DNA from: Campylobacterales bacterium
Lineage (GTDB): Bacteria; Campylobacterota; Campylobacteria; Campylobacterales; Campylobacteraceae
Assembly (NCBI GenBank): GCA_014859645.1
Contig: JACUTV010000012.1
Span: 1-41,431, forward strand
Direction of reading: 5' to 3'
Length of the DNA stretch: 41,431 nucleotides
Within the stretch, counting starts at the first letter, position 1, and every line of letters begins with the position of its first letter. A model generated the notes under the pieces. That model had not been told where the DNA came from. It was given only the letters and a program-made list of their open reading frames with translations, and searched no databases. The translations under genes and the position numbers were made by a program. Below are positions 32,462 through 35,490 of the stretch, piece after piece.

Positions 32462-33055
32462 ATGGCTATTGAGCAAAACAGTGTCGTCTCTATGCATTAT
32501 GAACTTAAAGATGTTCAAAATGGTGAAGTTTTAGACTCCAATCTTGGATCTGCCCCCCTATCTTTTATTTTGGGAAAAGGACATATCATTTCTGGACTTG
32601 AAGCTGAAATTGCCAAACTTGCAGAAGGCGAAGACGCGGAAATCACAGTTGCAGCAGCAGACGCATATGGCGAATATGATGCTGAGGCAATTCAAACACT
32701 TCCTAAAGAGCAATTTGCTGGTATTGAGCTGTTTGAAGGCATGACCCTGTATGGACAAGGCGAGCATGGACAGACAGTACAAGTAACTGTCAAAAGCTTT
32801 GATGATGAAAACGTTGATGTGGACTTCAACCACCCCCTTGCAGGTAAAGACTTAGCATTTGCTGTTTCTATTGCCGAAGTGCGTGAAGCAACCGCTGATG
32901 AACTTGCTACTGGTGTTGTTGGCGGCAGTTCAGCTGGTGGATGTTGCGGTGGAACAGGTGGTTGCGGAAGCCACACACATTCCCACGATGATGAAGACGA
33001 ATGCTGCGGAAGTCATGGCAAAGACCATGGCGGAAGTTGCTGTGGAGCACACTAA
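32462..33055 (+). CDS. slyD: FKBP-type peptidyl-prolyl isomerase SlyD
   Basis: SlyD is a proline isomerase, chaperone and metal carrier. The 197-residue protein has the split FKBP domain (SMHYELKDVQNGEVLDS, PLSFILGKGHIISGLE) with the inserted chaperone flap at about residues 65-130. The C-terminal ~40 residues form a Cys/His/Gly-rich metal-binding tail (GGCCGGTGGCGSHTHSHDD, ending GGSCCGAH). Such tails bind nickel and in other bacteria help mature NiFe hydrogenase. AAGGAG precedes ATG 32462. The tail overlaps the next gene's start. Confidence 0.96.
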   Translation: MAIEQNSVVSMHYELKDVQNGEVLDSNLGSAPLSFILGKGHIISGLEAEIAKLAEGEDAEITVAAADAYGEYDAEAIQTLPKEQFAGIELFEGMTLYGQGEHGQTVQVTVKSFDDENVDVDFNHPLAGKDLAFAVSIAEVREATADELATGVVGGSSAGGCCGGTGGCGSHTHSHDDEDECCGSHGKDHGGSCCGAH

Positions 33056-33815
33056 TTTCATTGCCCGATCACGAGCCTCTTTGGAGGCTCTAAAATCGGC
33101 AAATCTTCTTAAAAGCCTGAATATTAACGCCTTAATACTGGGCGAACAAGGTGTTGGCAAAACAACGTTAGCAACCCATATTGTCCAAGCCCCTGTTGTC
33201 CTTGGTGAAAATGCTCATGAAGTTCTCAAGGCAGTGGAATCCAACCCTAAATTAATTATAAAAAATTTTGATAAATTAGGACAATTTCACTTGTTGAAAG
33301 AGATGCTTTCCAAGTACAATACACGTATCATCGCTACCACTTCTGGAACATTGAGCGAGGCTTTGGTGGATGAGTTTTTTAGTTTAAAAATCACTTTAAC
33401 ACCGCTAAGGGAGCGTCCAGAGGATGTTGGACCTTTGGTGGATAAATTTTTTCTAGAGATTCGTAAGGTTTTTAATGCCAATGAAAGTCAACGGATTTTT
33501 TTAAAGGATTTTGTGCCAGATTTGAGTGAAAATGGATATTCCCTTAGGCGTTCTGTTTACACTTCTTTTCTAGCGAGCTCTTTTGGAGAAACTGAAATCC
33601 TTCTCATGATGCAAAATTATTTGAAAAAAAAGATTGGTAGCGGTAATGATTACCGTGATTTGTTGTACTTGTTTGATGTTCCGTTGATTAAATCAGGGTA
33701 CGAAGCCTTCGGCTCTCAACTGGCGATGGCTGAAAAATTTGGACTCAATCGCAACACCTTGCGCAAAAAAATCACCGAGTATGGACACTACCTTGAGGGG
33801 AAGGAAAAAAAGTGA
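33042..33815 (+). CDS. Miniature NtrC-like protein with degenerate ATPase and Fis-type HTH
   Basis: The 257-residue protein resembles a shrunken sigma-54 enhancer-binding protein. Walker A GEQGVGKT lies at residues 34-41, and the LRERPEDVGPLVDKFF stretch near residue 125 is the hallmark of the AAA+ sigma-54 activator family. The C-terminus is a Fis-type helix-turn-helix (LAMAEKFGLNRNTLRKKITE). There is no receiver domain. The GAFTGA sigma-54 contact loop is missing, and where Walker B (LFLDEIGEL) is expected it reads LIIKNFDKLG without Asp-Glu. It probably binds DNA or a partner but should not drive sigma-54 open-complex formation. GTG 33042 has GGAAG 5 bases upstream; in-frame ATGs at 33027 and 33015 are alternatives. 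It overlaps slyD by 14 and fabD by 4. Confidence 0.75.
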   Translation: MEHTNFIARSRASLEALKSANLLKSLNINALILGEQGVGKTTLATHIVQAPVVLGENAHEVLKAVESNPKLIIKNFDKLGQFHLLKEMLSKYNTRIIATTSGTLSEALVDEFFSLKITLTPLRERPEDVGPLVDKFFLEIRKVFNANESQRIFLKDFVPDLSENGYSLRRSVYTSFLASSFGETEILLMMQNYLKKKIGSGNDYRDLLYLFDVPLIKSGYEAFGSQLAMAEKFGLNRNTLRKKITEYGHYLEGKEKK

Positions 33816-34735
33816 AAACGGCCTTTATATTTCCTGGGCAAGGAAGCCAAAGCATTGGTATGGGGAAAGATTTTTATGATAATAGCTCGTTAGCACAAGC
33901 GATGATCGAGGAAGCTAGCGATGTGCTAGGGTGGGACATGAAACCCCTTCTTTTTGAGCCTAATGAACGCTTGGAGCAAACCCAATATACCCAACCTGCT
34001 ATTTTTTTGGTGGGCGCTATTGCCCATGCACTCTACAAGGAACGCGTTTCTGAAACCCCTGTTTTTACCCTTGGGCACTCCTTGGGTGAGTTCCTATCTC
34101 TTCATGCCACAGGCGCTTTGCCTTTGCGCGAAGGACTAGCACTGGTGCACACGCGTGGTAAGCTCATGATGGAAGCATGTGCAAAAGAGGCAGTGGGAAT
34201 GATGGCTGTTTTAGGCCTAGAGGACATCGATGTTGAGTCTATTTGCACTCGGGCTAGAGACGGCGGCAAGCGCGTTTGGCCTGCCAACTACAATAGCACT
34301 GGGCAGATTGTGGTAGCGGGTATCAAAGAAGACTTGGCGGCATTGGAAGGTGTGTTTAAGGAAGCAGGCGCAAAACGTGCGTTACTTCTGGCTATGTCAG
34401 TAGCTAGCCATTGTCCTTTACTCGAAAGCGTAGGTGAACCCCTGCTAGCTTCGATGCAAGGAGCGCTTAGCCCAACCTTCACAGCGCCTGTTGTCTCCAA
34501 TGTTACAGCAAAGACCTACCAGAGCAAAGAAGAAGCCCTAAGCCTTTTAAAAGAGCAATTAACCATGCCTGTGAAGTACAAGCAATCCATCGAAGCGTTC
34601 GATGTACATGTAGAGTGCTATGTAGAATTTGGCGGTGCGGTATTAAAAGGTTTAAATCGACGCATTAGCCAAAAACCCACCTATGCTATTACAGACATGG
34701 CGTCTTTGGATCAGGCGGTAGAAGCACAGCAATGA
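33812..34735 (+). CDS. fabD: Malonyl-CoA--ACP transacylase
   Basis: FabD loads malonyl groups onto ACP for fatty acid synthesis. The 307-residue protein shows FIFPGQGSQSIGMGKDF, the nucleophile elbow TLGHSLGEF, the catalytic His in VASHCPLL, and the closing VEFGGAVLKGLNRRI. GTG 33812 overlaps the preceding stop, with AAGGA 7 bases upstream. A GTACATGTAG repeat variant at 34604 encodes part of Asp-Val-His-Val. Confidence 0.97.
   Translation: MKTAFIFPGQGSQSIGMGKDFYDNSSLAQAMIEEASDVLGWDMKPLLFEPNERLEQTQYTQPAIFLVGAIAHALYKERVSETPVFTLGHSLGEFLSLHATGALPLREGLALVHTRGKLMMEACAKEAVGMMAVLGLEDIDVESICTRARDGGKRVWPANYNSTGQIVVAGIKEDLAALEGVFKEAGAKRALLLAMSVASHCPLLESVGEPLLASMQGALSPTFTAPVVSNVTAKTYQSKEEALSLLKEQLTMPVKYKQSIEAFDVHVECYVEFGGAVLKGLNRRISQKPTYAITDMASLDQAVEAQQ
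34604..34613. repeat. GTACATGTAG, two mismatches
   Basis: Inside fabD; keeps the 8-base core TACATGTA and reads Val-His-Val. Confidence 0.65.
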
Positions 34736-35490
34736 AGATTGCATTAGCACAAATCTCTCCCGTGTTATCGCGTCACAACGAAGCGTTACATGTAAGGCAT
34801 GTGCGTGCTCATGAACATGCGTGTGATGTTCTGGTTTTCCCAGAATTGTCTTTAAACGGCTATGCCCTTAAAGACGCTGTTTTTGAAGATGCATACACGT
34901 ACGAAGAGCTCGTAGCCCTTCCTTTTGTAAATGCGGCATGTGATGTGGTCTTTGGGTGTGTTTTTAAAGAACAGCACAAAATCTACAACGCTGCGGTGTA
35001 TGCGCGAACTTCTGGCGAAATCGTGGTTTATAAAAAAAGTACCTTGCCAAACTACGGGCTCTTTCAAGAGGCACGCTTCTTTTTTCCTGGGGTTGGTATC
35101 GCTCCTTTTGACACGGTTTTGGGCAAAACGGTGATGGCTGTGTGCGAGGATTTGTTTGATGCATCCTTTGTGGCCTCTGTTGCCAAGGCAAACCCAGATG
35201 CAGTGTTGGTGCTTTCCAACTCTCCTGCACGGGGGTTTGGAGAAAAGCTAGGCATCCAAGAAACATGGGAAAAGCTCTTAAGTGCGTGTGCCATTTACAG
35301 CAGGGCCCATGTGGTCTTTGTGAACCGTGTTGGCTTTGAGGATGGACTGGGATTTTGGGGGGGATCGTGCGTGATGGACCCTTCTGGAAATATCGTTGCC
35401 CAAGCATCTTTGTTTGTGCCAGAATGTTTACATGTAAGCCTCAATCACACCCTCTCGACTGTTCAAAAATACCACTTACGTTACACATAA
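34732..35490 (+). CDS. Carbon-nitrogen (nitrilase family) hydrolase
   Basis: The 252-residue cytoplasmic enzyme carries the Glu-Lys-Cys triad of the superfamily: Glu in VFPELSLNGY, Lys in YKKSTLPNYG, Cys in AVCEDLFDAS. The pattern is close to the glutaminase half of NAD synthetases and to stand-alone amidases, so it probably cleaves an amide; the substrate is unknown. It overlaps fabD by ATGA and precedes mtnN by 9 bases. Two exact TTACATGTAA copies lie in this gene (34786, 35428), each read as Leu-His-Val. Confidence 0.88.
   Translation: MKIALAQISPVLSRHNEALHVRHVRAHEHACDVLVFPELSLNGYALKDAVFEDAYTYEELVALPFVNAACDVVFGCVFKEQHKIYNAAVYARTSGEIVVYKKSTLPNYGLFQEARFFFPGVGIAPFDTVLGKTVMAVCEDLFDASFVASVAKANPDAVLVLSNSPARGFGEKLGIQETWEKLLSACAIYSRAHVVFVNRVGFEDGLGFWGGSCVMDPSGNIVAQASLFVPECLHVSLNHTLSTVQKYHLRYT
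34786..34795. repeat. TTACATGTAA palindrome, exact
   Basis: Inside the nitrilase-family gene, read as Leu-His-Val in ALHVRHV. Confidence 0.9.
35428..35437. repeat. TTACATGTAA palindrome, exact
   Basis: Inside the same nitrilase-family gene, near its end, read as Leu-His-Val in CLHVSL. Confidence 0.9.

Follow-up and report, generated by a model that had tools for sequence, protein, structure and literature searches.

The question raised by this locus is what a shrunken NtrC-like protein, encoded between slyD and fabD and called X here, does in the cell. It lies in a 41,431-nucleotide contig of a Campylobacterales bacterium (the window). An earlier note, made from the sequence alone, had described an enhancer-binding protein that could not work as a normal sigma-54 activator and had offered an anti-activator, a sigma-54-independent regulator or a structural DNA binder as its role. 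The features of the locus are as follows.

32462..33055, + strand: slyD, an FKBP-type prolyl isomerase, the 3' end of which overlaps X (Pfam FKBP_C, 1.1e-12)
33027..33815, + strand: X, a shrunken NtrC-like regulator of 262 amino acids (open frame and family alignment)
33141..33164, + strand: Walker A, GEQGVGKT, residues 39-46 (GxxxxGK in 41/45 homologues)
33252..33275, + strand: place of Walker B, LIIKNFDK, residues 76-83, lacking Asp-Glu (alignment); the GAFTGA loop is missing between Walker A and this point
33405..33428, + strand: LRERPEDV segment, residues 127-134 (R130 invariant, D133 nearly so; aligns to NtrC1 PPLRERKEDI)
33588..33785, + strand: Fis/NtrC-type dimer and DNA-binding region, residues 188-253, with recognition helix GLNRNTLRKKI (Fis profile match)
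33812..34735, + strand: fabD, overlapping the X stop codon by 4 bp (Pfam Acyl_transf_1, 1.1e-31)

The frame placed between slyD and fabD in the earlier note is real and overlaps both genes, while its start is better put at ATG 33027, favoured by the family alignment, than at GTG 33042; an in-frame ATG at 33015 is also possible. With the slyD stop at 33055 the first overlap is 29 bp, and the second follows from the GTG start of fabD at 33812. A search of the window genome finds one copy of X. Between two species of the genus dN is 0.067 against a saturated dS of about 1.6, and 12 alignment columns are invariant among 40 homologues reaching down to about 26% identity. Judged from these comparisons X is under purifying selection, and the low dN relative to dS together with order-wide conservation rules out a chance frame or a decaying pseudogene. 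The slyD-X-fabD order is retained in most of the close-lineage loci examined. A role tied to slyD or fabD was nevertheless dropped as the main clue, since elsewhere X adjoins nitrogen genes. A nitrilase-type CN_hydrolase gene (window 34732-35490) lies between fabD and pfs; it is found in some relatives and is missing in others.

The anatomy of X is that of an NtrC-family protein from which the working parts of the motor have gone. Its AlphaFold2 model has a mean pLDDT of 90, and the best PDB matches in Foldseek are NtrX, FleQ, NtrC1, VpsR and PspF (E 1e-7 to 1e-5); the structural comparison proposed in the note thus returns NtrC-family AAA+ proteins, and the alignment confirms the loss of motifs. 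Only 37 residues separate the Walker A lysine from the aspartate of LIIKNFD, whereas the corresponding interval spans 65 in two enhancer-binding proteins of this genome that contain GAFTDA. None of the 45 family members carries a GAFTGA-like string and only one has Asp-Glu at the Walker B place; nor does either element occur elsewhere in the chain of X. The Walker A motif itself is relaxed, the canonical GxxxxGK[ST] being present in only 11/45, and the Pfam match to Sigma54_activat (E 6.5e-5) is confined to the first ∼45 positions of that model. The protein begins about ten residues before the AAA+ remnant, and an N-terminal receiver with a phosphorylatable aspartate is absent. X therefore lacks both the parts required for sigma-54 work and a receiver, as the note had held for the former, and the AAA+ remnant is probably a nucleotide-binding or protein-contact module and not a sigma-54 remodelling motor.

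What has been kept agrees with the note as well: Walker A, the LRERPEDV segment and the Fis-type helix are all in place. As in NtrC, the C-terminal DNA-binding domain is of the Fis type (profile match to residues 188-252, E 8e-7; the Pfam matches to HTH_8 and HTH_50 fall below the cut-off). Its helix-turn-helix is the most conserved part of X, with Ser230, Asn241, Arg242, Thr244, Leu245, Lys247 and Lys248 invariant in the family alignment. Sigma-54 activators coexist with X, since contig 59 of the window genome (L380) carries the gene of an enhancer-binding protein that looks NifA-like by eye, with GAFTDA and an N-terminal region resembling GAF.

The search for the family across Campylobacterota that the note had proposed places X in an order-wide family. 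With a family-alignment search and an E-value below 1e-40, X is found in 166 of 397 genomes of the class. The labels of named relatives are Sulfurospirillum, Sulfurimonas, Sulfuricurvum, Hydrogenimonas, Sulfurovum and Arcobacter. In families f1 and f13, many genera with small genomes give only weak profile matches that resemble ordinary enhancer-binding proteins. These genera without X are probably Campylobacter and Helicobacter, in agreement with the note, which did not place X in the C. jejuni gene order. X is a gene of their free-living relatives. That X might be an anti-activator or decoy against sigma-54 enhancer-binding proteins such as FlgR, an option of the note with which the retained parts of the AAA+ surface and the coexisting true enhancer-binding proteins would agree, is very improbable given these weak matches, the invariant DNA-contact residues and the association of X with nitrogen genes and not flagellar genes.

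That association was hidden from the reader of the window because only slyD-X-fabD is visible there. In distant lineages X adjoins amtB, glnK, glnD and a further gene, Y, in several families, the Pfam E-values of these neighbours being 1e-108 (ammonium transporter), 5e-33 (PII) and 5e-26 (GlnD). In the slyD-X-fabD lineages, the window genome included, both X and Y are far from nitrogen genes. Among 200 genomes, the 55 that have X are exactly those that have Y, a count that leaves out two X and four Y matches with E-values above 1e-4 that resemble other proteins. PII is present in 166/166 genomes with X and 44/231 without it, and GlnD (strong matches counted) in 55/55 and 3/145, respectively; as the genomes are related, the p-values of these co-occurrences and of the sites described below overstate independence, which within-family contrasts (f9, f13, f19 and f1) soften but do not remove. 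Three genomes of the Arcobacter-like family f9 (G032, G055 and G204) have PII and GlnD and lack X, Y and exact copies of the palindrome discussed below. In several lineages X also adjoins a gene of family c4 (∼286 amino acids, no convincing Pfam match; L160:5234-6097, L289:2513-3370 and L310:1248-2105). In two other genomes the palindrome lies upstream of a c4 gene, and the product may be a membrane sensor in the nitrogen regulon.

Y is a protein of about 230 amino acids, the gene of which often overlaps X in the distant lineages. Pfam gave no clue to its identity; NCBIfam and fold comparison gave one. It has a PAS domain (the PAS S-box model matches 9/14 members with weak E-values), and the NtrB (NR(II)) model NF008293 matches 5/14 members weakly, with a best E-value of 2e-4. 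The predicted structure (pLDDT 86) matches PAS-histidine kinases, the NtrB catalytic domain (PDB entry 1r62, TM-score 0.72 on the target) and a NifL-NifA entry (9qq6). Y thus appears to be an NtrB-like PAS protein, for which the likeness in sequence is weak and the predicted fold gives support. Only ∼20 residues lie between the PAS domain and the catalytic-like part and there is no long helix pair, so the phosphoacceptor-histidine domain is missing. The N-box asparagine is also missing and no G-boxes are visible in the Y alignment. Because these three elements are absent, Y would be incapable of phosphotransfer signalling. In the window genome Y is on another contig, far from X (G000:C24:40857-41528, equal to L189:5949-6635, + strand). 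In the slyD-X-fabD lineages it has a conserved neighbourhood of its own, with a recurring gene for ∼620 amino acids and a pair of paralogous genes for ∼265 amino acids.

A pattern-free search of the regions before amtB and glnK for enriched gapped palindromes returned TGATTA-N5-TAATCA. In families f1 (which contains the window genome), f4, f6, f14, f15, f16, f18 and f19 it lies about 80 bp upstream of amtB or glnK, in some cases with one or two mismatches, and the 17 bp consensus in genomes with X is TG(A/C/G)TTAANNNTTAA(T/G)CA. Exact TGATTAWWWWWTAATCA sites number 72 in 35/55 genomes with X and eight in 8/145 without it (Fisher 2e-17, overstated to the extent that the genomes are related), while the backwards pattern used as a control gives two and one sites, three in all. 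Among the genes next to the sites are glnA (seven loci, one in the window genome), amtB, NarK-type transporters, the ferredoxin-nitrite reductase gene nirA, and genes for an NrtA-like (nitrate-binding-like) protein, a urea-binding protein, a tetrapyrrole methylase, NifU and PII; before glnA, amtB, narK-like, nirA and the urea- and nitrate-uptake genes the distance is about 85 bp. With up to two mismatches allowed, 30 of 40 glnA upstream regions in genomes with X carry the palindrome, nearly all at -80 to -91, against 3 of 20 in genomes without X, mostly at other places (p 3e-6, subject to the same relatedness). In the window genome the sites are 83 bp before the amtB frame (L317:1707, contig 154) and 86 bp before the glnA frame (L318:2089, contig 227). 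The 41,431-nucleotide window holds no copy, and hence no autoregulation of X is visible.

Some families with X (parts of f18, f9 and f6) have weak or altered sites. Two Arcobacter-like genomes carry the symmetric variant TGGTTA-N5-TAACCA, and a change of the recognition helix to the Arcobacter-type NRIT/NRVT may co-vary with it, a suggestive pattern confined to these two genomes. A CRP/FNR box, in which the spacing is N4, was ruled out, as the palindrome reads TTGAT-N9-ATCAA. In Sulfurospirillum-type genomes, and with one mismatch in the window genome, the palindrome is also found before large chemoreceptor-like or Cache-domain-like genes (L293, L294, L295, L297 and L316), where the -10 spacing is less clear.

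The promoters at these sites have a constant geometry. A sigma-70 -10 box lies 31-32 bp downstream of the palindrome, the best box starting 48 or 49 nt from the palindrome start in 37/71 promoters and in 28/61 after removal of similar sequences. The same spacing recurs at the NarK, NirA, NrtA-like, urea-binding, porin and methylase genes, none of which was used to find it; it is also seen at L280 and L283, where the genes behind the palindrome encode a substrate-binding protein of urea uptake and a porin-like protein. No promoter among the 71 matches the sigma-54 element TGGCAC-N4/5-TTGC, and the loose form GG-N10-GC occurs in four. The palindrome centre would thus lie at about -52 relative to the predicted start site, and the arrangement reads as a sigma-70 promoter with an upstream activator. 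It is a direct observation that, in genomes with X, nitrogen genes are marked by a conserved palindrome at sigma-70 spacing. Of the roles suggested in the note, the sigma-54-independent regulator becomes the best reading, with predicted targets that show sigma-70 spacing and no sigma-54 element; a purely structural DNA binder finds no support.

In Campylobacterota, then, nitrogen assimilation is probably controlled by a reduced NtrB/NtrC pair of which X is the DNA-binding half. The best reading makes X a phosphorylation-free NtrB/NtrC descendant that would bind the palindrome and activate sigma-70 promoters in nitrogen limitation. GlnD and PII would read the nitrogen status, as co-occurrence and established PII biology suggest, and PII would act on Y, the anatomy of which was described above. 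Y may then contact X directly, roughly in the manner of NifL and NifA. A dimer of X is predicted to bind the 17 bp palindrome through its Fis/NtrC-type helix-turn-helix and, from a position near -52 relative to the predicted start, may help the sigma-70 polymerase, as the promoter geometry suggests. The predicted targets are glnA, amtB-glnK and the nitrate/nitrite and urea uptake genes. For the whole scheme, an order-wide two-component system without phosphorelay in which an NtrC-like sigma-70 activator of the nitrogen regulon is governed through direct contact by an NtrB-like protein that answers to PII and GlnD, the balance tips slightly in favour.

Two other readings share the nitrogen context. 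X could be a repressor of nitrogen genes, or a DNA binder that responds to PII or glutamine independently of Y. Fis-type DNA binding, a P-loop remnant and the regulon fit either sign of control, and TyrR-like and FleQ-like enhancer-binding relatives can repress. This is unlikely: activators typically have what is seen here, a site centre fixed near -52, in constant helical phase and ahead of the -10 region, and independence from Y fits poorly with two genes that are never apart in 200 genomes. It is quite unlikely that the palindrome belongs to another transcription factor, with X for example sequestering or tuning a different nitrogen regulator. The tie between motif and X consists of co-occurrence and geometry, and in the slyD lineages X does not adjoin the sites; against this, the three f9 genomes that keep PII and GlnD lack the exact sites as well as X and Y, the NtrC-box-like length and outer TG...CA are expected for a helix-turn-helix of this type, and that helix-turn-helix is where X is most conserved.

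An open-access library yielded no literature on the X/Y system or on the control of nitrogen assimilation in Sulfurimonas, Sulfurospirillum and Sulfurovum, which are important Campylobacterota of vents and sediments. For these, a candidate regulator can now be named together with its partner, a predicted binding site and the regulon it may govern, namely glnA, amtB-glnK and the genes for nitrate/nitrite and urea. The pair would show how, in nature, a phosphorelay and a sigma-54 ATPase can wear down to a simpler sigma-70 regulator under contact control, and the Campylobacter- and Helicobacter-like genera would show its absence.

Among known systems, E. coli NtrB/NtrC exerts PII-linked control of glnA and amtB, but does so by a phosphorelay and a sigma-54 enhancer mechanism, whereas X lacks both the receiver and the motor. 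VpsR, FleQ and TyrR are enhancer-binding relatives in which GAFTGA is degenerate or missing and which can act together with sigma-70, and the first two are among the best fold matches of X; unlike X, all three have an AAA+ domain of full size and, separate from it, an N-terminal domain. The C-terminal 65 residues of X match the helices of Fis with a nearly identical recognition helix, but X has an AAA+ remnant in addition, and the small number and specificity of its predicted sites set it apart from an abundant nucleoid protein. The E. coli NtrC box is 17 bp long, TGCACCAnnnTGGTGCA (PMC8743547), and the palindrome linked to X resembles it in length and in the outer TG...CA.

NtrC of Rhodobacter capsulatus and Caulobacter lacks GAFTGA and acts at sigma-70 promoters, and in Caulobacter it is required for glnA expression (PMC10274813). 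X resembles these proteins as an NtrC-type nitrogen regulator without the sigma-54 contact loop, its sigma-70 role being predicted. They keep the receiver and phosphorylation, which X does not. Loop 1 has lost at least eight residues in them, whereas in X the stretch from Walker A to Walker B is about 28 residues shorter and Asp-Glu is missing. In NifL-NifA of Azotobacter, the system of the 9qq6 match to Y, a partner with PAS and kinase-like parts controls an NtrC-family regulator by direct contact, as is proposed for Y and X. NifL-NifA also has PII input. NifA keeps GAFTGA and drives sigma-54, neither of which holds for X, and in Y, unlike NifL, the phosphoacceptor domain is wholly absent and much of the catalytic domain is gone. 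X and Y would thus combine both simplifications, the sigma-70 use of a GAFTGA-less NtrC and contact control of the NifL-NifA type.
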